Translations under genes and position numbers: made by a program
Part shown: in pieces, positions 7,424-45,395 of the stretch
How the letters are laid out: every line of letters begins with the position of its first letter
How positions within the stretch are numbered: the stretch's first letter is position 1
NCBI GenBank assembly: GCA_022843485.1
Contig: JALHNM010000002.1
Location: 344,238-408,237 of the forward strand
DNA: 64,000 nucleotides
Reading direction: 5' to 3'
DNA from: Fimbriimonadaceae bacterium
GTDB taxonomy: Bacteria; Armatimonadota; Fimbriimonadia; Fimbriimonadales; Fimbriimonadaceae
Notes under the pieces: model-generated
Databases searched by the model: none
What the model saw: only the letters and a program-made list of their open reading frames with translations
What the model was told of the DNA's origin: nothing

Positions 7424-8128
7424 TCAGGCCGACATCTTCTTGCGGCTCGAACCGCCCTCCTCGAGCACCAGCGAGACCTGGTTCACCCCGAGCGGCTGCA
7501 GCTCTGTCGCCTGGCCGGTGGTCTGGCGCACGAACCGGTAGCCCGCCGCGTACCAGCCCGGCGGCACCGTCACCTCCCGCGAGAGGTTCCCGGGGGCGAA
7601 CTTGTAGTACTGCGCGGTGCGGTAGAGCTCCGGCAGCGGCTTGCGGTTGCCGTTCACCAGCGGCTGGATGAGCAGCTCGGTGGTCACGCCCGTCCCGTTC
7701 GGGGCCGAAGCAGTAAAACTCAAACGGCCCGGGGTCGCCGTAACGGTGATCGTGATCGTGTCGCCCGTGAAGGGCGTCGAAGGCGGGTCCTGCGGCACCG
7801 TCCCCGTCGGCGAAGCGAGCAGGAAGCGGGTCGTCAGCTCGTTGAAGACCGCGATCCCCTCCCGCTTCCGGCGCTTGTTCCCTCGGCCGAGCACGGTCAG
7901 GTTCGAGGCATAGCGGTTCCAAAGGTCGACCTTCGCCTTCGGGAGGGTCGCGAACGTCGTCGTCGACTGGCGGAACTTGCCGCGAACGTTCTGTTGCTTG
8001 TCGGTGCGCGGGTTGGCAGGGACGACGAAGTCCCGCACCACCGTGCCGTTCTTGGTGTCCGCAAAGACCGTGTTCCCGGCCTTGCCGGAAAGAGCCTGAG
8101 CGAATGCCCCGAGCTTGAACAGGGCCAC
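7424..8128 (-). CDS. Accessory protein of unknown function, paralogue of the gene at 13487
   Basis: 234 residues, GTG start, no signal peptide. The N-terminal block LGAFAQALSGKAGNTVFAD, then VVRDFVVPANPRTDKQQN, matches the protein at 13487 (LGAFSASLSGSSGTTVFV and VVRDRVVPRNPRTADQ). The C-terminal blocks also match: GVTTELLIQPL versus GVVTELLLQPL, FAPGNLSREVTVPPGW versus FAPGSLSATVPALPGW, and VRQTTGQAT versus VNAATGQAT. Similar 'G.VGG..F......VR....P.NPRT..Q' proteins occur widely in environmental bacterial and viral sequences without an assigned role. The C-terminal half looks like a beta-sandwich. Function unknown; its position next to defence genes may only reflect a variable locus. Confidence 0.75.
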   Translation of the reverse strand: MALFKLGAFAQALSGKAGNTVFADTKNGTVVRDFVVPANPRTDKQQNVRGKFRQSTTTFATLPKAKVDLWNRYASNLTVLGRGNKRRKREGIAVFNELTTRFLLASPTGTVPQDPPSTPFTGDTITITVTATPGRLSFTASAPNGTGVTTELLIQPLVNGNRKPLPELYRTAQYYKFAPGNLSREVTVPPGWYAAGYRFVRQTTGQATELQPLGVNQVSLVLEEGGSSRKKMSA

Positions 8129-8396
8129 TAGCTGAGACCTCCGAGAGTGGGGGCGGTCGGGAGACCAGCCATCCGTTGCTGTTGGTTCGTCATGGGATAC
8201 TCCAAGACGGTCGACCTCCGGAGCCAGACCGAAGCCGCTTCCGCACCTCCGACAGAGCCATCCCTAGCCCCAACCCCGACCCTAGCTGAGTGACCATCCC
8301 TAAAATCCTCGGCCCCCACACGCCCCTTTCCTCACCGTGACCTGGGAAGTCCGGCACCAATGCCGGCCCCTTGCATTCCCCGGGTAGCATCCCTGT

Positions 8397-8891
8397 GTGC
8401 AGGCCCTGCGGGACTATCTTGCCGCCCTGACCCAAGCCCGTAGCGTCGGCACTGCCGAGACCAGCGGCTACCCAGCCCTCAAAGCCCTCTTCGACGCCGC
8501 CGGGGAGGCGCTCAACCCCAAGATCATCCTGATGGTCCATCCCCGCGGGGACGGAGCCGGGCTCCCGGATGGAGGGCTCTTCGAGGCCCGCCGCGGCCGT
8601 CAGCACGGCCAGGGGGAGTTCTTCGTCGACGATCAGACCCTCCCCGACCGCGGCGCCGTCGAGGTCAAGCCGACCTCCCACGACGTCTACGCCACCGCCC
8701 AGAGCCCCCAAGCCCGCAAGTACCTCCAGAAGTACGGGCACCTCCTCGTCACCAACTACTGGCACTTCGCGCTCTACCGCCTCGCCGACGGCCAGCCCGA
8801 GCTTCTCGACGAGTACCTGAGCACCGTCCGAGAAACAAAGGTGTCCGGACAGCCGCCCAGCCCCATTTGGCGGCATCCGTTGAACTCCTGA
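8397..8891 (+). pseudogene. Type ISP restriction-modification enzyme, N-terminal remnant
   Basis: 164 codons from GTG 8397. The blocks ALRDYLAALTQARSVGTAET, YPALKALFDAAGEAL, GAGLPDGGLF, RGAVEVKPTSHDVYATAQS and GHLLVTNYWHFALYRL reproduce the N-terminal (nuclease/head) domain of type ISP-like single-chain R-M proteins, which run to about 1000 residues and also carry an N6-adenine methyltransferase. Homology ends near residue 145 (about base 8830), and the frame closes with an unrelated tail. The helicase and methylase parts are absent. The matching C-terminal part reappears at 11048-11734. The enzyme is therefore split and almost certainly inactive. Confidence 0.8.
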
Positions 8892-9201
8892 TCGATACTT
8901 CAAGCATTGACCATGGGCGACCTCGAGAAAGAGACCATCGCGCACATAGACTAGGACAGCCTCCCTAGACCCCTGCCGGATCAGGCTGGTGCTGATGACT
9001 CTGCCCATCGCCTGAGTTCAGGGCCAGGGCACACCTAGCTCTCAAGCACCAACTCGACGGAGGGGGAAAAATCCAGCGCCACCGAGCCTCGTTGACCCGT
9101 CACTATGACAGGGGCAAGAGTGTCCGGTAGCTGCCCGAGGTGGTCGCTGACCTGGCACAGGTCGACCCCTGACAGGCAGAAGATACGGGCGGGAGCACAC
9201 G
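8892..9201 (+). other. Non-coding leader upstream of the reverse transcriptase, with a nested hairpin
   Basis: No convincing gene in these 310 nt, and base composition is less GC-rich than the core. A nested structure stands out: CAGGGG (9109-9114) pairs with CCCCTG (9166-9171) around an inner perfect hairpin GACCTG-GCA-CAGGTC (9149-9163). It ends about 30 nt before the RT start. Several defence RTs use a structured RNA encoded next to the RT gene, so this is a candidate template or effector RNA. I see no retron-type msr/msd layout. Confidence 0.35.
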
Positions 9202-10776
9202 ATGACCCTTTCCCGCCGCAAATCAACGACAGGCTCACTCCTAGGCATCGACCATCGCATGAACAAGCAGGCACTAGCACTCACGATCTACGATCTTAAT
9301 GAAACGACCTTCGCCCCGCGGCGAGCAGTCGCAAACGTCCTAAGCGCCTACCGTATGGACCTGGGCGTCGCGGATCTGTCCCTGGAGGGTGAACCCGAAC
9401 ATGAGTTCGTCTATCAGCCCAAGGCAAACGGTAAGTTGCGCCCGGGCTCGAACCTGTCACTAGCCGCGATCTATCAGTATAACGAGCTAGCGCTCGAGCT
9501 CTGGCCTATCGTCCACCCCGCTTTACCATCGGCCCCGGGTGTGCACTGTAACTGGGGAAGAAGGCCACGGTCGCAATTGAAGAAACTCGCGTCCACAGGC
9601 TTGTTCGAAGCCGATGATTGGCGTCGCAGCCGCAGATTCCTGGGTGCTTTGCACGCGAAGCACGGCCCTCATCTCCTCTGCGCCGATATCCAGTCATGCT
9701 TCGAGATGATTAGGGGCGAGCAGGTGAAGATCGTGCTCGACAACCTAGGGGTGCCGGCGTCGCTGATCGACAGGGCGACAGTCTATGCAGAGCTTACTGG
9801 AAGAGGCTTACCACAGGGACCATCACTAAGCTGGCTCCTCGCGCCACTCGTGGTGTCCCCGATCCTCATTGAGTTTGCTCGGTATGGGATCCCGGTCGTA
9901 GCCTTCATGGATGACTTCGCAATCCCCTGCGACTCCCGGTGGACTGGTGGTCGCTACCTAGCGCAGCTAACCGAGATGTGCGAGCAGCGTGGCTTCCTCA
10001 TCAACCCAGCTAAGTGGCGAATCTACGATGGGCTCAACGCCCAGTTTGCAGCCATGGGGGTCGAGCCAGGCGACGTCGAGATGGAGAACTATGTCGTCGA
10101 AGATTCAGAGGAGCATGAGGATCAGGAGCCGGAGCGAGATCAGAGTTATAGCGTTGTTGGAAAGTCGGGAGTGCTGCCCTGCTCCATCGACTGGTCCCGG
10201 CTCCATGACGATCTCAGAGCACGGGGCCCGGATGTCGGCACGGAGAAGCTTTTTCGGCAGACGATCCGCGAGACGGCTAAGATCGATCGCAGCAAAATCG
10301 TGGGCGATGTCCCCTGGTTCGCTTCGGGTTACCCGTCACTTCTACCGACAGCCATCAAGGCCGTCATCAACCCCGAGCTGAGCGGATGGGCACACAAGCT
10401 CGTAAAGGCCCCTTCCTCCTCAGAGTGGACTCGTGCTGAGGTCCTCAGGCGACATCGTCACTGGTCTAGTCGGCCGCCTGGGCAAGCGGCCATGAGCGTT
10501 CTTCAAACCGAGGGGGCTGCTAGTCACCTTGTATCTACGGCCTACGAGGTCGCCATTGCTTCGGGATCGGAACAGGCAGCCTACGCTTGCCTGTACCGGC
10601 TCCAGCAAGAAGTCCGCATGGATTGCCGGGTCGGCGCTGCGAGCGGGTTGGCTGCGCTCAAGCCGTCCGCTGCGCAGCACGCAAGGGCATTGCTCACCAG
10701 AGAGCCGAAGCTGGTGAGGTGTGCCGCGGATCTCGCGGTCCGAACTGCCCAACGGATCCATGATCAAGCGGCTTAG
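9202..10776 (+). CDS. Reverse transcriptase of Abi/UG (defence-associated) type
   Basis: 524 residues. The RT palm motifs are clear: motif A with D162 in CADIQSCFEMI, motif B GLPQGPSLSWLLAP (202-215), motif C FMDD (235-238, with F and M in place of YA), and motif D GFLINPAKWRI. An acidic linker (about 300-313) leads to a 200-residue helical C-terminus (AAYACLYRLQQEV, VGAASGLAALKPSAAQ) with HEAT-like helix pairs. That resembles the alpha-Rep region of Abi and UG-class RTs. There is no group II intron maturase or endonuclease domain. ATG 9202 has the better Shine-Dalgarno (GGGCGGGAG); ATG 9259 is an alternative. GC content and codon choice differ from the neighbours, which suggests transfer. 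Confidence 0.85.
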   Translation: MTLSRRKSTTGSLLGIDHRMNKQALALTIYDLNETTFAPRRAVANVLSAYRMDLGVADLSLEGEPEHEFVYQPKANGKLRPGSNLSLAAIYQYNELALELWPIVHPALPSAPGVHCNWGRRPRSQLKKLASTGLFEADDWRRSRRFLGALHAKHGPHLLCADIQSCFEMIRGEQVKIVLDNLGVPASLIDRATVYAELTGRGLPQGPSLSWLLAPLVVSPILIEFARYGIPVVAFMDDFAIPCDSRWTGGRYLAQLTEMCEQRGFLINPAKWRIYDGLNAQFAAMGVEPGDVEMENYVVEDSEEHEDQEPERDQSYSVVGKSGVLPCSIDWSRLHDDLRARGPDVGTEKLFRQTIRETAKIDRSKIVGDVPWFASGYPSLLPTAIKAVINPELSGWAHKLVKAPSSSEWTRAEVLRRHRHWSSRPPGQAAMSVLQTEGAASHLVSTAYEVAIASGSEQAAYACLYRLQQEVRMDCRVGAASGLAALKPSAAQHARALLTREPKLVRCAADLAVRTAQRIHDQAA

Positions 10777-35541: not shown

Positions 35542-38436
35542 CTAGGTCGCCGGGCCCTGCCACCCCTCAAGCCCCAACTGCCCGGCCATCGCCGTGACGT
35601 ACCCGAGCTCAAGCAGCCCCTGACCCAAGAGGCGGACGTCGCAGGCGAGGGGCCTGTCCTCCGTCAGTGCAGGCACGGAGCAGAGGAGCGGCCACAGAGC
35701 CGTTCCGCCGAGACACCGAGGCTCCCGACCGACAAGGTGGAAGGCCTGGCGCAGGGCGAACGCGAGGCTCCCCAGTAGCCAGGTGAACCGTTCGGTCTGG
35801 CGAAGGGCGGCTTGGGCCGCGTGGGTGCCCATCGGCACGACGTCCTGGTTCGAGCCGTTCGTGGGGATGCTCTGGACCGAGGCGGGCACACACTCGCGGC
35901 GCATTTCGGCGAGGACGGCGGTCGCCGCCAACTGGATCCCAGCGAGGCCGCTGTCCAAACCGGGCCGGGGACTGAGCAGGGGGGGGAGGCCGTCGGTCCT
36001 GGCGGGGTCGCAGAGGAGGGCGAGTTGGCGCTCGGCGAGGTTGGCGGACTGGACGACGGCGGTCGAGAGGGAGTCCATCGCGAAGGCGGTCTCCTGACCG
36101 AAGAAGTTGCCGCCGTGGACGACTTCCTCGGCCTCGACGTCGAATAGGGGGTTGTCGGACACGCCGTTGAGTTCGTCGGTCACGACCGACCAGGCGTGGC
36201 GAAGCGTGCGGAGGGCGGCACCGAGGAGTTGGGGGGTGCAGCGGAGGGAGTACGGCTCCTGCAGGGGGCGGTCGGCGTTGAGCACCCTCCCCTCGGCGGC
36301 TTGGCCGATCAGTGCCGCGACGGTCTCGTGGGCGGGGTGGCCGCTCGACCGGTGAAGGACAGGGCGTAGCGGCTGGCCATGGGCGCCGAGCAGATCGTAG
36401 AGCAGGCCGGTGAGCGCGGCCGTTGCGGCGAGTTGCCGGCTGTACGCCTCGAGGGCCAGGGCGGCCGTGGCCCCCATGAGGGCCGTGCCGTTCACCAGGG
36501 CGAGGGAGTCGCGGCCTTGGAGCACTAACGGCGACACCCCGCGGGCTTCGAGGGCCTGGCGGGCATGGACGTTACGGTCGCCGTCCCAGACATAACCGTC
36601 CCCGGTCAGGGCGGCCACGGCGTGGGCCATGGGGATGAGATCCCCGCTTGCGCCGACCGATCCGTAGGTCGGCACAACGGGCACGACCCCGGCCGATAGG
36701 AGCCGGGCCAGGCTCTCCGCGCAGTCCTCTGACACACCGGAAAGCCCCTGCGAGAGGGTGTGCAGCCGGAGTAGGAGCATCCCCCGGACCACTAAGGGGG
36801 CAAGCGGAGGACCTTGACCTGCCTGCAAGTGGGCGACCAAGCCTCGGCCCTGGTCCTCCGGCGAGCACCGAGCGCCGAACCCGACGAGCGGCCCAAACCC
36901 CGTGGTCCAGCCGTAGACCGCTTCCCCACTGGCAGCGCGGGCAACGGCGAACTCGTGCCCTCGGCGCAGGAGTCGCCGGGTCGCCGTGGGCAGACTCGCC
37001 GCTCGGTCAGGGTCACGCGCCCAGGCCGCCAGCAACGAGGGGGTGAGCCGAGTTGCCGGGCCCACCTCGAGGGGTCCCTTCTCTGCCGCCCACTCCCGCA
37101 CCTTTCGGCGGCACCACTTGCCGTTCGTGCGGAACTCACGGGCAGCGACCGTCGGGCTGACGGTGACCGGGTCCTCGAAGGGCAGTTCGGAGGGGAGGTC
37201 GAGGTCAAAGGCGCGGTCTGTGACCACGATCGGCCGAACCCGGCCCCCGTTCCCTTCGACGAGGAGGACCGCACGGCCCGGGCTCGAGAGGGACTGCTCC
37301 AGCCCCTCGGGGAAGAAGAGGCGACCGTTCGGGAGCTTCCAGGTGGAGTCGCGTCGACCGAGGTAGGTGTACGAGCCGTCGAGCTCCTGTCGGGCGAGGT
37401 CGCCGGTCGCGTGCCAGCCGTCAGTGGCCGAGGCCACTGCGTCAGGAGAGAGGTTTGGACCCCGCACCAGGAGTTCGCCTTCGCCCGACAGCCGCACCTC
37501 GCAGCCCACCGGACGACCCAGCCCGCCGGGGCGGAAGACGCCGGGTTCGCCCAGGGTCACTCCAGGGGAGCACTCGGTCTGGCCGTAGCCGACTCGGAGC
37601 CGGGGGGCGTCTCGGGTGAGCGCTGCGGCGAGTTCGGGCCCGATGGCCGAGCCGCCTACGATCCCCCCTTCGAGCCGACCGAACCACTCCCCCCCGCGGT
37701 CGGTGGCAAGGGCAGCCTCGGCCACGGCGGGGACGGTGAACACGTGGGGGTGCGGCAGGGTTCTCCCAAGGTCGATCCAGCGCCTGAGGTCGAACCGGTC
37801 GGGGCACGGGAGGTGGATCTCGAGGCCCGCCTCCAGTGAGCAGAGCAGCTCGAGCACCCCTCCGAACGCGTGCCCCCAGCTCAGGTAGCTACAGACCGAG
37901 CCCTGGGGGCGGAGGGCGAGGAGGGGGGCGTGGGACTCGACCTGACCGAGCACGTTCGCGGTGGTGAGGCCGACGAGCTTCTCATGGCCGGTGGTGCCGC
38001 TCGTCGCGAACACGACGGCCAATGAGGGGTCGGGGGGCCTGAGGGGGGCGAGGAGTTCCGGAGGACGGGCCTCGTACAGGTCATCCATCGGAACCCCGTG
38101 CGGACCGCCGACGATCAGCCGGGGCTCGTAGGCGGCGGGGTCGAGGGCTCGGTTGGGAGCGCACGGACAGAACGTGGCACCGAGCCTTGCGCACGCAGCG
38201 AGGACGGCGATGAAGTCGACCCCGTTTGCCAGTTGAGCGACGACGCGATCCCCGGGGGCTACCCCTGCCCGGTCGAGGATCTCCGAGACGGCCCGGCCGC
38301 TCGTGAGGATCGAGGCCCCTGGACAGGCTCGGGAGGGCCCGGTCTCGCCGTACTCGTACACGACCGGGTAGGAGCCACCGGCGAGCCACTCCTTGAGTCG
38401 GTCGTAGAGGGGGCTGAGGAGGGCGGTCCGATCCAT
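35542..38436 (-). CDS. Fused p-coumarate:CoA ligase-like and tyrosine ammonia-lyase-like protein
   Basis: 964 residues. Residues 1-450 form an ANL adenylating domain: TSGTTG at 145-150, YGQTE at 284-288, TGDL at 344-347, C-terminal catalytic Lys440. Residues 455-964 form an aromatic amino-acid ammonia-lyase: Y508 in YGWTTGFGPL, the MIO triad Ala596-Ser597-Gly598 in GSVGASGDL, GVSDNPLFD, GNFFGQ and GSNQDVVPMG. The His536-Leu537 pair in LVAHLQAG matches the tyrosine-selecting His-Leu of TAL (Phe-Leu in PAL). Together: tyrosine to p-coumarate to activated thioester, the precursor of the PYP chromophore. The PYP gene lies 62 nt upstream. TAL and ligase are normally separate proteins. Confidence 0.9.
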   Translation of the reverse strand: MDRTALLSPLYDRLKEWLAGGSYPVVYEYGETGPSRACPGASILTSGRAVSEILDRAGVAPGDRVVAQLANGVDFIAVLAACARLGATFCPCAPNRALDPAAYEPRLIVGGPHGVPMDDLYEARPPELLAPLRPPDPSLAVVFATSGTTGHEKLVGLTTANVLGQVESHAPLLALRPQGSVCSYLSWGHAFGGVLELLCSLEAGLEIHLPCPDRFDLRRWIDLGRTLPHPHVFTVPAVAEAALATDRGGEWFGRLEGGIVGGSAIGPELAAALTRDAPRLRVGYGQTECSPGVTLGEPGVFRPGGLGRPVGCEVRLSGEGELLVRGPNLSPDAVASATDGWHATGDLARQELDGSYTYLGRRDSTWKLPNGRLFFPEGLEQSLSSPGRAVLLVEGNGGRVRPIVVTDRAFDLDLPSELPFEDPVTVSPTVAAREFRTNGKWCRRKVREWAAEKGPLEVGPATRLTPSLLAAWARDPDRAASLPTATRRLLRRGHEFAVARAASGEAVYGWTTGFGPLVGFGARCSPEDQGRGLVAHLQAGQGPPLAPLVVRGMLLLRLHTLSQGLSGVSEDCAESLARLLSAGVVPVVPTYGSVGASGDLIPMAHAVAALTGDGYVWDGDRNVHARQALEARGVSPLVLQGRDSLALVNGTALMGATAALALEAYSRQLAATAALTGLLYDLLGAHGQPLRPVLHRSSGHPAHETVAALIGQAAEGRVLNADRPLQEPYSLRCTPQLLGAALRTLRHAWSVVTDELNGVSDNPLFDVEAEEVVHGGNFFGQETAFAMDSLSTAVVQSANLAERQLALLCDPARTDGLPPLLSPRPGLDSGLAGIQLAATAVLAEMRRECVPASVQSIPTNGSNQDVVPMGTHAAQAALRQTERFTWLLGSLAFALRQAFHLVGREPRCLGGTALWPLLCSVPALTEDRPLACDVRLLGQGLLELGYVTAMAGQLGLEGWQGPAT

Positions 38437-38498
38437 CGGGCATTGGCGGGGTCGGTTCGCTGAGGCGCGGGTGCGCGCCGGGCCCACCCCGTTGGCGC

Positions 38499-38870
38499 TT
38501 AGGCGGCTCTCTTAACGAAGACCCAGTTCGTGTTGTCGGTCGGGTTGCGGAAGAGGTGGACGTTGACGTTCGTCGGCCTCATCTTGTACGTGAAGGTATA
38601 GACGAACTGCTCGTCGAGCCGGCCGTTCGCGACGCCCTCCTTGAACTTGCCGAAGAAGAGCCGGTTGTTGGAGCAGGGGGCCACCTGGGTGAAGAAGTTG
38701 CGCCCCTCGGCGTCGCTCGGGGCGACCCCGGCCAACTCGGACTCGTAGCGGTTGTACAAGATGACAGTGCCCTCGTCGTCGACCTTGACGACGCCGTACT
38801 CTTCCCTATCGACGGCCTCGCGGTCGACGTTGCTGAGGTTGTTCAGAAGTTTCGGGGAAACGAAGCTCAT
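38499..38870 (-). CDS. pyp: Photoactive yellow protein
   Basis: 123 residues, PAS fold. The stretch NFFTQVAPCSNNRLFFGKFK, then EGVANGRLDEQFVYTFTYKM, and the end WVFVKRAA follow Halorhodospira PYP closely. The chromophore cysteine is Cys66 (Cys69 in PYP), and Tyr39 and Glu43 stand for Tyr42 and Glu46, which hydrogen-bond the phenolate. Met97 matches Met100. Thr50 and Arg52 are replaced by Ala and Val, which should shift colour and photocycle. This is a blue-light sensor whose p-coumaryl thioester chromophore the adjacent fused enzyme could supply. Shine-Dalgarno TAAGGA lies just before the ATG. Confidence 0.95.
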   Translation of the reverse strand: MSFVSPKLLNNLSNVDREAVDREEYGVVKVDDEGTVILYNRYESELAGVAPSDAEGRNFFTQVAPCSNNRLFFGKFKEGVANGRLDEQFVYTFTYKMRPTNVNVHLFRNPTDNTNWVFVKRAA

Positions 38871-38896: not shown

Positions 38897-39331
38897 TCAG
38901 GCGGCGTCGGAGCAGAGCCGCTCGAGGCGTTCGATCTTGGCCTTGATCTCGGCGACGACCTCTTCGATCTCAAGCCCAGGCCACTGTTCGGCGATCTGTC
39001 GTTTCTCGTCGTAGAGCTCGATGAGTTGGGCCTCGAGCGAGCTGGCCTGGTCGGTCGGGTCGGGGGGAGTGACCCGAGAGGTCTTGGCCCCCTGGCGGGC
39101 GAGCTCGATGACCTCGTCGATCGTGAGGCCGGGGAACGCTGCGGCGAGGCGGGCCCGGTCGCTCTCGAGGGCGTCGAACCGCTCCTGGATCAGGCGGTTG
39201 AGTTCGTCGTCGACGCTCCGGACGAGCGTCACGATCTCCTGGGCGCTCTTCCCGGGGAAGTTGGCGTCGAGGAGTTCCTTGTCCCGGTAGAGCTCGGCCA
39301 GTTGACGCTCCATGTTCTCGATGTCGCCCAT
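38897..39331 (-). CDS. Three-repeat helical (coiled-coil) protein, first gene of the PYP operon
   Basis: 144 residues, acidic, wholly helical by eye. One motif occurs three times: LAELYRDKELLDANFPGKSA-QEIVTLV, FDALESDRARLAAAFPGLTI-DEVIELA, and LIELYDEKRQIAEQWPGLEI-EEVVAEI. It reads 'L..LY..K..L...FPG....E(I/V)(V/I)', with a coiled-coil linker between units. Not a family I recognise. It sits 26 nt upstream of pyp in the same direction, so a role as PYP partner or output module is a reasonable guess, not shown by the sequence. Confidence 0.75.
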   Translation of the reverse strand: MGDIENMERQLAELYRDKELLDANFPGKSAQEIVTLVRSVDDELNRLIQERFDALESDRARLAAAFPGLTIDEVIELARQGAKTSRVTPPDPTDQASSLEAQLIELYDEKRQIAEQWPGLEIEEVVAEIKAKIERLERLCSDAA

Positions 39332-39897: not shown

Positions 39898-41076
39898 TCA
39901 GCCGCGGTTGAAGCCGGGTCGGTTGGGCTGTCCTCGGACTCCGGCGGCGGGCGGCGGGGCGGGAGACCCGGGCGCACCAGGGGCCCCCGAGGCGCTACCG
40001 GCGGCCCGTTGAGCGAGTTCCACCAGGCGACCGAACTCGCCGGGGTCCTTCGCTTTGCTTGCGGCGTCCTCGACGGAGACGAGGCCCTTCTCGACGAGCT
40101 TGGCGAGCGACTGGTCGAGCGTCTGCATGCCCTGCCTGGAGCCGGTCTGGATGATCGAGCTTAGCTGGTAGGTCTTGTTCTCGCGGATCTGGTTGCGGAT
40201 GGCGCCGGTGGCGTTGAGGACCTCGAACGCGGCGACGCGGCCCCGGCCGTCCTTGCGCTTGACGAGGCTCTGCGAGATCACGCCGAGCAGGTTGACGGAG
40301 AGCTGCATCCGGACCTGCTGCTGGGCGTGGAGCGGGAAGACGTCGACGACGCGGTCGACGGTCTGGACGGCGTCGACCGTGTGGAGCGTGGCGAAGACGA
40401 GGTGCCCGGTCTCGGCGGCGGTGATCGCGAGGTGGATGGTCTCGAGGTCGCGCATTTCGCCCACGAGGATGACGTCCGGGTCCTGACGCAGGACGTACTT
40501 GAGGGCGTTGGCGAAGCTGAGGGTGTCGACGTCGAGCTCGCGCTGGTTGATGAGGGCCATGTGGTCGTCGTGGACGAACTCGATCGGGTCCTCGACGGTC
40601 ATGATGTGGCACTTCTGCGTCCGGTTGACCCGGTCGACCATCGCCGCGAGGGTCGTCGACTTTCCGCTGCCGGCCGGCCCGGTCACGAGGACGAGGCCAC
40701 GGGGGCGCTCGATGAACTCATAGCAGACCTTCGGGAGGGAGAGGTCCTCCATGTTCGTGATCTCGTAGGGGATCACGCGGAAGGCGGCTTGGTGGTGCTC
40801 GCGCTGGACGTAGAGGTTGCCGCGGAAGCGGGAGACGCCAGTGATCTCGAGGGCGAAGTCGAGCTCCATCTCCTTCTCGAACCGGACCATCTGCTCCGGC
40901 CGAAGGAGGTCTCGCATGGCGGCGAGGAAGTCGTCGTCGGAGAAGCTCGGGACGTCGTCGAGCGGCAGGAGGTCGCCGAACACGCGGACGTACACCTTGC
41001 CGGTGTCGGACTTGATGTGGAGGTCGCTCCCTTGCATCTCCACGGTGCGCCGAAGGAGCCCTTGGACGTCGAGCAT
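39898..41076 (-). CDS. pilT: Type IV pilus twitching ATPase PilT (copy 1)
   Basis: 392 residues. Walker A GPAGSGKST, Asp box VEDPIEFVHDD, Walker B region DVILVGEMRDLET, His box FATLHTVDA, and the PilT-specific AIRNQIRENK. It powers pilus retraction as a hexamer. The C-terminal 50 residues (GSASGAPGAPGSPAPPPAAG) are a Pro/Gly/Ala tail not found in short PilTs. ATG 41076 gives the normal N-terminus, MLDVQGLLRRTVEMQGSDLH. Confidence 0.93.
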   Translation of the reverse strand: MLDVQGLLRRTVEMQGSDLHIKSDTGKVYVRVFGDLLPLDDVPSFSDDDFLAAMRDLLRPEQMVRFEKEMELDFALEITGVSRFRGNLYVQREHHQAAFRVIPYEITNMEDLSLPKVCYEFIERPRGLVLVTGPAGSGKSTTLAAMVDRVNRTQKCHIMTVEDPIEFVHDDHMALINQRELDVDTLSFANALKYVLRQDPDVILVGEMRDLETIHLAITAAETGHLVFATLHTVDAVQTVDRVVDVFPLHAQQQVRMQLSVNLLGVISQSLVKRKDGRGRVAAFEVLNATGAIRNQIRENKTYQLSSIIQTGSRQGMQTLDQSLAKLVEKGLVSVEDAASKAKDPGEFGRLVELAQRAAGSASGAPGAPGSPAPPPAAGVRGQPNRPGFNRG

Positions 41077-41120
41077 GGCCAGAGTGTAGCCGAGCCGAGT
41101 GGACTGGCACACGGAGGGGT

Positions 41121-41146
41121 CGAGGGCCCGGGGGGCCGGGCCCTCG
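41121..41146 (-). terminator. Hairpin terminator behind the 41159 gene
   Basis: CGAGGGCCCGG (41121-41131) and CCGGGCCCTCG (41136-41146) form an 11-bp stem with a GGGG loop, 12 nt past the minus-strand stop at 41159. Confidence 0.65.
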
Positions 41147-41158
41147 GAGGGGATCGGG

Positions 41159-42067
41159 TTAGCCGCCCTTGACGCTTGTGACGCCGAACTCGGTCACGAT
41201 GCCGCCCTTTTGTTCCCAGCGGTTCTCGCTCGGGTTCCAGTAGGGGGCGCTGCCCATGATCGTGTCGGTGTTCTGCTTCATGAAGTTGAGCTGGTTCGAC
41301 ATCATCTGATGGTTGTGCTGGCTCATCATCTGGCGCGCCTGCATGACGGTCTGCTGCTCTTGGGGCGTGAGCTTCGCGCCGAGGTCGGCGCGCACCAGGA
41401 GCCGGTCGAGTTCGTCCATGTTCGGCCATTGGATCATGTGCCCCATCACCTTTGCGACGTTCTCCTGGAACTGCTCGCGCTGTTCCTTTTCTGCCTTGGC
41501 GAAGTCCCGGGCGAGTTGGACGCGCAGCTTCTGCCGGCTCGCCTCGCTCAGTTTGGGTTCGGGTTTGCCGCTCTGCACAGAGCCGAGGAAGAGGAAGGCA
41601 TCGATATAGGCGTCTGCCAGGGCCTTGCTGAAGAGGGGAGCCTCAGGGACGAGGGCCGGGTTGCTTTGTCGGTAGACCTCGAGCATGAGGATGCTGCTCT
41701 CGTCGCCCTGCTTGACCGCCTCGTCCGCCCGGATCAGAAACCCCATGATGTTCGACGTCAGAGCCAGCCGCTGCGTCCGGGCCGGGAGGGCGCGCAGCTG
41801 CCTCATGCCGTCGACCGTCCCGACCACGGCCCGTGGAGTCGTGCCGTCCGACCAGTACTTGATGAGGATCGTCCGCATGCGCTCGGTTTGCTGGGGAGTG
41901 AACTTGCCGAGCGTCGTGAACTCGGTCGCCTTCACGAACTCGGCCACGATCTCCTGAGTCAACGGCGGATCCCCATCGGCGAGGACCTGGGCCACGGCAC
42001 CGACCGGAGTGAGCAAGGCGGCGGTGGCGACGGCGAGCAGGGCGAGTGGGTTGCGGGATCTGTGCAT
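41159..42067 (-). CDS. Exported helical protein of unknown function in the pilT cluster
   Basis: 302 residues with a signal peptide (MHRSRNPLALLAVATAALLT, cleavage near VGAVAQ). A helical body has many Gln/Met (FAKAEKEQREQFQENVAKVM, QARQMMSQHNHQMMSNQLNF). The family is not known to me. It lies between two pilT genes on the same strand and could be a periplasmic part of the pilus system, though that is only suggested by position. Confidence 0.65.
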   Translation of the reverse strand: MHRSRNPLALLAVATAALLTPVGAVAQVLADGDPPLTQEIVAEFVKATEFTTLGKFTPQQTERMRTILIKYWSDGTTPRAVVGTVDGMRQLRALPARTQRLALTSNIMGFLIRADEAVKQGDESSILMLEVYRQSNPALVPEAPLFSKALADAYIDAFLFLGSVQSGKPEPKLSEASRQKLRVQLARDFAKAEKEQREQFQENVAKVMGHMIQWPNMDELDRLLVRADLGAKLTPQEQQTVMQARQMMSQHNHQMMSNQLNFMKQNTDTIMGSAPYWNPSENRWEQKGGIVTEFGVTSVKGG

Positions 42068-42223
42068 GCTTCCTTACCTTCGGCCCGCGCTTGCCCGGGG
42101 GGGCCGTAAGAGGGATACCGACCAGGGCGGCCCGGGTTGGGCCCTTGGAACCGGGGGCGGCCCCGCCCGATGGGCCCTCAGCCCCGGTTGATGGGAGCGG
42201 CCGGAGGTCTCCGCGGCCCTCCG

Positions 42224-43318
42224 CTACGCAGTCACGCCCGCGGGGATGGCGATGCCTTGGTGGGCGGCGCGGCTGGTGAACTCTTGGACGTTCGAGCACT
42301 TGCTGACGGCGTGTTCCCAGTCGATCGCGCCTTCCTTGAGCAGCGTGAGGAGGGAGCCGTCCAGGGTCTGCATCCCGTGCTCGACGCCGGTCTGGATGTC
42401 GTGGTAGAGGGCGTGGGTCTTCCCTTCCCGGATCATCGTGCGGATGGCGGGGGTCGCGGTCATGACCTCGAAGGCGGCGACGCGGCCCTTGCCGTTCCGA
42501 AGCGGCAGCAGGGTCTGGCTCACGATCGCTTGGATCGTGACGGAGAGCTGGGTCCGGATCTGCTCCTGCTGGTCGGGCTCGAACACGTCGACGATGCGGT
42601 CGATGGTCTGGGCGGCGTCGACGGTGTGGAGGGTCGAGAAGACGAGGTGCCCGGTCTCGGCGGCGGTGATGGCGAGCTGGATGGTTTCGAGGTCCCGCAT
42701 CTCGCCGACGAGGATGACGTCCGGGTTCTGGCGCATGACGTGGCGCAGAGCGTCGGAGAAGCTATGGGTGTCCGTGCCGAGTTCGCGCTGGTTGACGATC
42801 GACATCTTGTCCTGGTGGACGTACTCGATCGGGTCCTCGATCGTCATGATGTGCTTGCGCACGTTCACGTTGATGTGGTCGATGAGGGCGGCGAGGGAGG
42901 TCGACTTGCCGGACCCGGTCGGCCCGGTGACGAGCACAAGCCCGCGGGGCATGAGTGCGATCCGCTTGGTCGAGGGCGGGAGGCGGAGTTCGTCGATCGT
43001 CCGGATCTTGTAGGGGATGAGGCGGAAGACGGCCCCCACGTGGCGACGCTGCCAGAACATGTTGACCCGGAACCGGGCGAGGCCGGGGATGGCGTAGCTG
43101 AGGTCGCACTCGCGGAAGTTGTCGAGCCGGTGGCGGCGCTCGTCGTTCAGGATCGCGAAGAGCATCTCCTCGGTCTCGGCGTCGCCCCAGGGCTGTTCGT
43201 CGAGGCGCCGCAGGTCGCCGTGGACCCTCATGATCGGCGGGTTGTTCGCCTTGACGTGCAGGTCGCTCCCGTCGAGTTCGACGAGCTTGTGGAGGAGGGT
43301 GTCGAGTCGTCCGGGCAT
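42224..43318 (-). CDS. pilT: Type IV pilus twitching ATPase PilT (copy 2)
   Basis: 364 residues. Walker A GPTGSGKST, Asp box IEDPIEYVHQDK, DVILVGEMRDLET, His box FSTLHTVDA, and AIRTMIREGK in place of AIRNLIRE. N-terminal PAS-like domain (LVELDGSDLHVKANNPPIMR). Close in sequence to copy 1 and of canonical length. Retraction motor; two similar motors may work on different pili or surfaces. Confidence 0.93.
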   Translation of the reverse strand: MPGRLDTLLHKLVELDGSDLHVKANNPPIMRVHGDLRRLDEQPWGDAETEEMLFAILNDERRHRLDNFRECDLSYAIPGLARFRVNMFWQRRHVGAVFRLIPYKIRTIDELRLPPSTKRIALMPRGLVLVTGPTGSGKSTSLAALIDHINVNVRKHIMTIEDPIEYVHQDKMSIVNQRELGTDTHSFSDALRHVMRQNPDVILVGEMRDLETIQLAITAAETGHLVFSTLHTVDAAQTIDRIVDVFEPDQQEQIRTQLSVTIQAIVSQTLLPLRNGKGRVAAFEVMTATPAIRTMIREGKTHALYHDIQTGVEHGMQTLDGSLLTLLKEGAIDWEHAVSKCSNVQEFTSRAAHQGIAIPAGVTA

Positions 43319-43460
43319 CGTTGCCCCTCATTGTCGCACATCGGTCCGGAGCGCTGTCCCGGGGCCGACTCCCCATCAATGAAGAACCGCAAGCATCAAG
43401 TCTAGAGAATGGGATCCGGGTCGCCAATGATCCCTTCCAGACAGTGGATCGGAGATCAGG

Positions 43461-45395
43461 ATGACCATCAAGCAGCGACTCTTCGGCGGCTTCACTCTCG
43501 TGGCCCTCTTGGCCGTACTCATGTGGTGGATCGGAGCCAGCAACCTTTCGTCGGTGGGTGTCCGGGCGACGAGCCTGTTCGAGGAGTCTGCCACTCCTCT
43601 GGGGATCACGGGGGAGATCGGCGAGGAGGCTGGGAAGATCCGGATCGCGATTCGCGAGACGATCATCGCCCGAGACGCCGCGACGACCGAGGTTCGCGTC
43701 GAGCGCATCGACGTCGCCTTTGCCAAGCTTGCCGAGGCCACGGCCCGGCTGGAAAAGGTCCTGCCCGAGAATCCGTCTGTTCAGGCCTCTTTCGCGGAGT
43801 ACAGCGAGGTCCTCGCGGGGTATGTCCCGATCGTAGACCGGATGCAGGCCCTGGCTCGAGCCCAGAACTACAACGAGATGGATCGTTACCTCTGGGACGT
43901 CTGCATCCAACAACAGGCGAAGTTCGAGCCTGCCTTGACCGCCTTGCGTCAGGGTGTGCTAGAGTCGGCGCAAAGGGGCCTGTCGGCGACGCAACACGAG
44001 GTGACGCTCGCCCAGACGAAGCTGACGATCGGGGGCGTGGTAGCAGTCTTGCTCGCCGCAATCTTCAGTTCGGTCGTCACGCTCTCGTTCTCTCGACGGG
44101 TCGATTCTGTTCGGAACGCGATGGAGCTTGCCGCTAAGGACGTCATCGACGTCTCGATCCGGCTCCCGGTCACGGGTCGTGACGAGCTCTCGGCACTGAC
44201 GTTGGCGATGAACGGCCTCATGGAGAGCGTGGAGGCGACGGTCGCCAAGGTGCGGCGCAACACGCGTGAGACCCACAGACAGACGACTACTGTTTCGACG
44301 TCGGTGGGCCTCGCCTTGACGGAGACAGAGCGAATCAGCGCCAACTTCGACGAAGTCTCCCGGGGAGCGACCCAGTCGGCGGAGAACGTCGCTCGGGCGT
44401 CCCGGTCCATGGACAGTCTGAACGACGCGATCCGCCGGGTCAACGGGGTCGCCGCCTCGGTAAAGGATGAGACCGACGACGCCGCAGGCCAGGTGCGAGA
44501 GATCGCGTCGGCGTTGTCGGAGAGCGCGCGGTTCGCTAACGAGGCCGGTGCCCTTTCAAACCAGGCTGTGGAGAGTGCGTCCCGGGGCAAAGTCGGGGTT
44601 GAGGAGTGTGCGAACGGCATGGGCCGGATTCTCGGGGCGACCCAGTCGGCAGCCTCTGCAATCGACGAGCTCGGTCAGGCGAGCACGAAGATCGGTTCGA
44701 TCGTCGAGGCGATCAGCGACATCGCGGAGCAGACGAACCTTCTGGCCCTCAACGCGGCCATCGAGGCGGCTCGGGCCGGGGAGCACGGGAAGGGTTTCGC
44801 CGTCGTGGCCGACGAGGTTCGCAAGCTCGCTGAGCGCTCGAGTGAGCAGACCAAGGAGATTGGTGGGATCATTTCTCAGGTGCGCGAGTTGACAGCCAGG
44901 GCGGTTTCGGCGATGGAATCGAGCATGGGCGAGGTTAAGGAGGGGTCGGAACTGGTCGCGGACGCGACCTCCACCCTTGGCGAGATCGAGAGGAACGTGG
45001 CGGCGGTCGTTCAGGCCATCCAGGGCGTAGAGTCGCTCACAGGGCGGATCGACCACGCCGCTCAAGGGCTGTTGACCATGACGGTCCGGCTCGGCGACTT
45101 GGCGAACGAGACGAACGATTCGACCGAGTCGATGCTCGAGAGCAGCAGCAACCTAGCCAGCTTGCTGTCTGACGTCGCCGCCGTCTCGCAGCAGAGCGTG
45201 GCGTCGGTGGAGCAGGTCGCCCAGGCGAGCCATAGTCAGACTCACCACCTGCGCGAGGTCGAGGACTCAATGAAAGTGGCCCAGGCTACTTGCGAGTCAC
45301 TGCTGGAAACCCTCGACGGCCTCAAGTCTTCGGTCGAACCCGGCCGTAACCCCCTGGCCCCGCGGTCAGCGAAGCCGGTTCAGCGGGCGGCCTAG
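43461..45395 (+). CDS. Methyl-accepting chemotaxis protein
   Basis: 644 residues. First membrane helix [20 protein letters not shown], a four-helix-bundle-like sensor (residues about 35-180), second helix [24 protein letters not shown], then a long signalling coiled coil. The kinase-contact tip is [19 protein letters not shown], followed by [18 protein letters not shown]. It relays a periplasmic signal to CheA. Its place among pilT genes suggests control of twitching motility (inference). No CheW/CheA is in the window. Confidence 0.93.

Follow-up and report, generated by a model that had tools for sequence, protein, structure and literature searches.

The 64,000-nucleotide stretch of DNA analysed here (the window), from a Fimbriimonadaceae bacterium of the phylum Armatimonadota, carries, on its minus strand, three closely spaced genes encoding, in that order, a coiled-coil protein, a photoactive yellow protein (PYP) and a protein in which an ANL-type ligase is joined to an aromatic ammonia-lyase (Table 1). 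The coiled-coil stop codon is separated by 26 nt from the pyp start codon, and pyp is followed after 62 nt by the ATG of the fused gene, or after 11 nt if an upstream GTG is the start. A tRNA-Asp and a tRNA-Phe gene come next. The region directly upstream of the three genes (39898-45395 of the window) encodes two ATPases of the PilT type (T2SSE), as well as a methyl-accepting chemotaxis protein. These neighbours were considered as a possible output of the system, and dropped as unsupported; they are absent from the ORFs read around the related locus of genome G135 (see below).

Table 1. Positions of the features discussed, in window coordinates or by locus.
Feature	Position	Strand	Evidence or remark
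Coiled-coil protein, 144 aa, first gene of the putative operon	38897..39331	-	ORF; adjacency, fusion and co-occurrence statistics; AlphaFold2 model
Photoactive yellow protein, 123 aa	38499..38870	-	TIGR02373 E 1.9e-34; PDB PYP chains E 2.5e-30; Halorhodospira halophila PYP alignment
Codon of Cys66, predicted chromophore-binding cysteine (H. halophila C69)	38673..38675	-	Alignment
Fused ANL ligase and predicted tyrosine ammonia-lyase (TAL), 964 aa	35542..38436	-	Single open frame; Pfam AMP-binding and Lyase_aromatic; AlphaFold2 mean pLDDT 79
ANL (p-coumarate ligase-like) half, residues 1-451	37084..38436	-	Pfam AMP-binding; PYP-type ligase clade; structural match, Z 23.4
Codon of Lys440, putative adenylation lysine, A10-like motif RTNGKWCRR	37117..37119	-	Motif alignment; inside low-confidence model segment 379-451
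Predicted TAL half, residues 452-964	35542..37083	-	Pfam Lyase_aromatic; tree; Foldseek best match 2o6y
Ala-Ser-Gly 596-598, MIO-forming triad	36643..36651	-	Sequence motif, alignment
His536-Leu537 selectivity pair, as in TAL	36826..36831	-	Sequence motif, alignment
G135 fusion, 1029 aa	L062:9693-12782		Two further genes between pyp and fusion
G068 fusion, 941 aa	L063:8385-11210		1 nt after pyp
G078 fusion, 1001 aa	L066:2478-5483		pyp C-terminal fragment just upstream, at contig end
'Blind' PYP fusions	L093:5435-9112; L100:2-979 and 8083-9726; L101:6995-9841; L106:7397-9748; L108:7330-9750; L113:7302-9842; L115:6805-9612		

The initial annotation, made from the letters of the window, had described the last two of these genes, and its reading of their size, spacing and key residues was borne out by the ORF coordinates and by alignment with H. 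halophila PYP. Tyr39, Glu43 and Cys66 fall at the positions of Tyr42, Glu46 and Cys69, the residues that define the PYP family through p-coumarate binding (PMC9664959). Other residues of the H. halophila protein are conserved (P68, F62, Y94, F96, Y98, M100 and W119), with departures at T50 (Ala) and R52 (Val). Profile searches gave TIGR02373 (photo_yellow) as the best NCBIfam match, although the score of 118.4 bits is below the curated cut-off of 143, and PDB PYP chains were also matched. Since this model was built on four seeds, according to the published survey (PMC9664959), and since none of 291 Armatimonadota genomes reaches its cut-off, we take the latter as an annotation threshold and not as a defining feature. 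The PYP tree had too few columns for deep-branch resolution, and a scan of viral contigs with the window PYP found no relative.

The fused gene has no internal stop, and encodes 964 residues from its ATG or 981 from the alternative GTG at 38487. Pfam domains AMP-binding (PF00501, 118 bits, residues 66-347) and Lyase_aromatic (420 bits, residues 482-921, both in the 981-residue numbering) were found in the same frame, in agreement with the claim that a single protein holds an ANL enzyme and an MIO-type lyase, and the Ala-Ser-Gly triad and the His-Leu pair are where they had been placed. In the AlphaFold2 model of the fusion, built on an 18-row alignment, confidence is good over most of the lyase half and of the ANL core, and the ANL C-terminal subdomain (residues 379-451) has mostly pLDDT <50.

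For the lyase half, several lines of evidence speak for the prediction of a tyrosine ammonia-lyase: sequence, phylogeny, fold and genomic neighbourhood. Its His-Leu pair, the counterpart of His89-Leu90 in Rhodobacter sphaeroides TAL, and its NQD motif are those of the latter enzyme, whereas the histidine ammonia-lyases (HALs) of relatives have Ser-His and (K/Q)EDH. The lyase tree puts it among 11 rows, mostly PYP-linked TALs, which form a clade (100/100) distinct from that of the HALs (100/100). The top Foldseek match of the fusion model is R. sphaeroides TAL itself (PDB 2o6y, 36% identity), which has the MIO triad and fold in common with the window half, but is a stand-alone enzyme from a different TAL clade. 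Structural realignment gave similar Z values, about 40, for TAL, aminomutases and HAL; the fold alone therefore leaves the substrate unfixed, and the argument for tyrosine rests on the His-Leu and NQD residues as opposed to Ser-His and (K/Q)EDH. The initial annotation had envisaged that the lyase half might turn out to be a HAL, and hutH is indeed its best-scoring NCBIfam model; nevertheless, the HutH cut-offs are missed (332 of 539 bits for TIGR01225, 344 of 524 bits for NF006871), which, together with the TAL-type residues, the separate clade and the presence of a distinct HutH-type gene elsewhere in the window genome, makes a HAL hardly credible. That HutH-type gene (G000:C1:818305-819672, L001) contains a TAG and a TAA two codons apart amid good homology, and is either broken or affected by a sequencing error. 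Lyases found beside pyp in Bdellovibrionota, Idiomarina and others (L070, L076, L077, L099, L116, L120, L145) carry the pairs Tyr-Leu, Phe-His or Tyr-His, and form separate clades.

The ANL half clusters with PYP-linked ligases (support 99/97), and a 4-coumarate:CoA ligase with coumaroyl adenylate is, among other ANL enzymes, a structural match; the C-terminal part, poorly modelled, gave no outstanding match upon realignment. With 4-coumarate:CoA ligase and feruloyl-CoA synthetase (PDB 5bst, 8wev) it shares the ANL fold (Z about 23), but at about 20-24% identity, with a divergent C-terminal subdomain and a lyase attached. The core motifs SGT/SGS, GYGQTE and TGD, invariant or nearly so across the PYP-type ligase family, are intact, and an A10-like lysine is present in the usual G-K order in the window (Lys440, RTNGK) and in G135. 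In several PYP-type ligases this motif reads T-x-K-G instead, and the usual catalytic lysine seems displaced. Given this K-G order in related enzymes and the low pLDDT of residues 379-451, full ligase activity is not assured. It could be that the TAL half is active next to a degenerate or partly active ANL half, which would form the adenylate without CoA transfer or serve as a scaffold, PYP being loaded from coumaroyl-AMP or by another ligase. The low-confidence subdomain, the unusual motif of related ligases and the two other ANL proteins encoded by the window genome would fit such a situation, which we nevertheless find unlikely in view of the G-K lysine and the intact core motifs; moreover, a shallow alignment of 18 mixed rows may explain the low pLDDT.

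A search of 291 Armatimonadota genomes gave clear PYP matches in seven. Ligase and TAL are encoded as one ORF in three genomes besides that of the window (G135, G068 and G078), with 44-55% identity to the window protein in the lyase halves and 34-38% in the ANL halves, and in these three the fused gene is the sole aromatic lyase found. This recurrence bears on the possibility, raised from the outset, that assembly or sequencing errors merged two genes into one long frame. Unfused, overlapping ligase and TAL ORFs do exist, in a Leptospiraceae MAG, but an architecture that is found again in three other assemblies, at no more than 55% identity and in two families of the phylum, is not an artefact, and we give the error practically no weight. 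In two further genomes, G076 and G077, the ligase adjoining pyp is unfused, and the TAL lies on another contig.

The PYP-type ANL is present in six of the seven pyp-positive genomes and in none of the 284 others (Fisher p about 1e-12). Five of these six show the PYP cysteine, and in the remaining one, G078, the part with the Cys lies between contigs. The seventh pyp-positive genome, G081, encodes a PYP (L064:7741-8118) in which Cys69 is replaced by Ser and Glu46 by Ala, and has the coiled-coil gene; neither a PYP-type ANL nor any lyase at all was found in it. The grouping of the test by Cys was made after G081 had been seen. A different role for the fusion would be to feed p-coumaroyl-CoA to an unrelated pathway, its position beside pyp being incidental. 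In other bacteria, flexirubin biosynthesis draws on pairs of a TAL and a CoA ligase (PMC3992019), and a TAL sister sits on a plasmid of Streptomyces clavuligerus. Such a role is very improbable, however, as each of the four genomes with the fused gene has it within or next to the pyp locus, and as the PYP-type ANL tracks PYP across the 291 genomes.

Outside the phylum, a genome-wide scan with a PYP alignment gave 80 named loci from many phyla (the best 80 of 120). Among these best 80, a lyase is found near pyp in 37; the sole fused one (L067) is that of G135 itself, and all other lyase ORFs are at most 700 aa long. Fusions of rarer occurrence may have escaped the scan, because the set is restricted to the best 80 of 120 loci and because the ligase profile misses very divergent gammaproteobacterial ligases. 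In Leptospiraceae bacterium SKYG28 (L075), the four parts seen in the window (coiled coil, pyp, ligase and TAL) occur in the same order, but its ligase and TAL occupy two ORFs in different frames with a 23-nt overlap, which is a plausible pre-fusion state.

The question arises as to how often the fusion occurred. In the lyase tree, the window and G135 group with S. clavuligerus TAL, and G068 and G078 with the unfused G076 and G077; placing the four fused lyases in one clade is rejected by the AU test (p 5e-5), and a single fused clade is likewise rejected in the ANL tree (p 7e-4). The trees of both halves suggest two fusions as the simplest reading, with the reservation that they contain long branches; alternatively, one old fusion may have been followed by several later splits. 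The apparent double origin suggests that coupling of the two steps is favoured. A plasmid search found no ligase-TAL fusion: the S. clavuligerus TAL, 48% identical, is a separate ORF, and a ligase and an aminomutase of S. zaomyceticus are annotated as separate genes. The open-access literature yielded engineered cases or unrelated work and no natural TAL-ligase fusion, which is weak evidence, and the fusion appears to be undescribed.

In the pyp-pCL-TAL operon of H. halophila, PYP, ligase and TAL are encoded in this order as separate proteins (PMC12826048). Gene order and inferred chemistry are the same in the window, but ligase and TAL make up one polypeptide there, and a coiled-coil gene precedes pyp. 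This operon type is thus already published, as is PYP in Armatimonadota (PMC9664959, PMC12826048), so that the expectation of novelty expressed in the initial annotation stands for the fused architecture and not for PYP in this phylum; what looks new is limited to that architecture and to the coiled-coil partner.

The coiled-coil gene is the one element that had been overlooked. The family is characterized by a motif close to S(M/L)ExQLxxLYxEKExLxxxxGxSxAxxxIxMxRS(L/M)ExQLxxLY, of which the shortest members (57-61 aa) have two QLxxLY core copies, and AlphaFold2 models the protein as a succession of helix-turn-helix units (pLDDT 85). None of the members tested passed the cut-off of any Pfam or NCBIfam family, a word search of two PYP surveys found no coiled-coil partner, and the family is apparently unnamed and undescribed. 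It is present in all seven pyp-positive Armatimonadota genomes and in one of the 284 others (Fisher p 2.5e-13, 291 genomes); in this one, G107, the contig stops inside the gene or shortly beyond it. A profile built on the pyp-adjacent Armatimonadota members, and applied unchanged to other phyla, located the family, among the 8100 ORFs of the PYP loci (best 80 of 120), next to pyp in 34 of the 80, joined to a PYP domain in nine, and only four times elsewhere. Such a near-exclusive position beside pyp counters the idea that the matches are low-complexity noise. The loci concerned (L067-L133, from the same 80) belong to Bdellovibrionota, Ignavibacteria/Kapabacteria, spirochaetes, Gemmatimonadota, Planctomycetota, Myxococcota and Sphaerotilus, and the gammaproteobacterial loci among the 80 have no member of the family.

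A particular class comprises the fusions of Bacteroidota, in which the coiled-coil repeats are joined to a PYP domain devoid of Tyr42, Glu46 and Cys69 ('blind' PYP), with an intact PYP encoded a short distance downstream. Overall, 8 of the 10 fused copies lack the pigment residues, and the Cys is kept in all 82 free PYPs of the set (best 80 of 120 loci). The coiled-coil protein is a strong candidate for a signal partner of PYP, which it would dock and whose signal it would relay. A second PYP-neighbour family is common to many loci (L062:7744-8358, L060:5626-7065, L110:7644-9701, L078:7077-8537); its L110 member lies within an Hpt and HATPase_c protein (CheA-like), the L078 member has a weak CheW match, and no match was found in the window.

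What is observed is the sequence itself with its conserved residues, the linkage kept between the genes, the repeated appearance of the fusion, and the families into which the two halves fall. On this basis we consider it likely that the three genes constitute one light-sensing operon, encoding the coiled coil, PYP and a chromophore enzyme with two activities; its co-transcription, the substrates, both activities, the attachment to Cys66 and the coiled-coil function are inferred. The C-terminal half would convert tyrosine to p-coumarate with removal of ammonia, the N-terminal half would turn p-coumarate and ATP into the adenylate and probably then into the CoA thioester, and the activated group would be transferred to Cys66 of the PYP encoded next door. 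The most likely function of the coiled-coil protein is to dock PYP and to pass on its light-triggered change. Direct channelling is possible, between the two halves or from enzyme to PYP. A broader proposal, that the enzyme makes, activates and hands over the chromophore within a complex organized by the coiled coil, and that this coiled-coil family is a general signal-relay subunit of PYP across many phyla, is more speculative, and we advance it as tentative.

A natural ligase-TAL fusion would allow a single gene to take tyrosine to activated p-coumarate, with possible uses in holo-PYP production, in PYP-based tags, or as a building block in phenylpropanoid engineering. Of the two leads, the coiled-coil family is the one with the larger consequences: signal transmission by PYP has been singled out as a point on which important knowledge is lacking (PMC12826048), and the family offers a concrete protein with which to study it.
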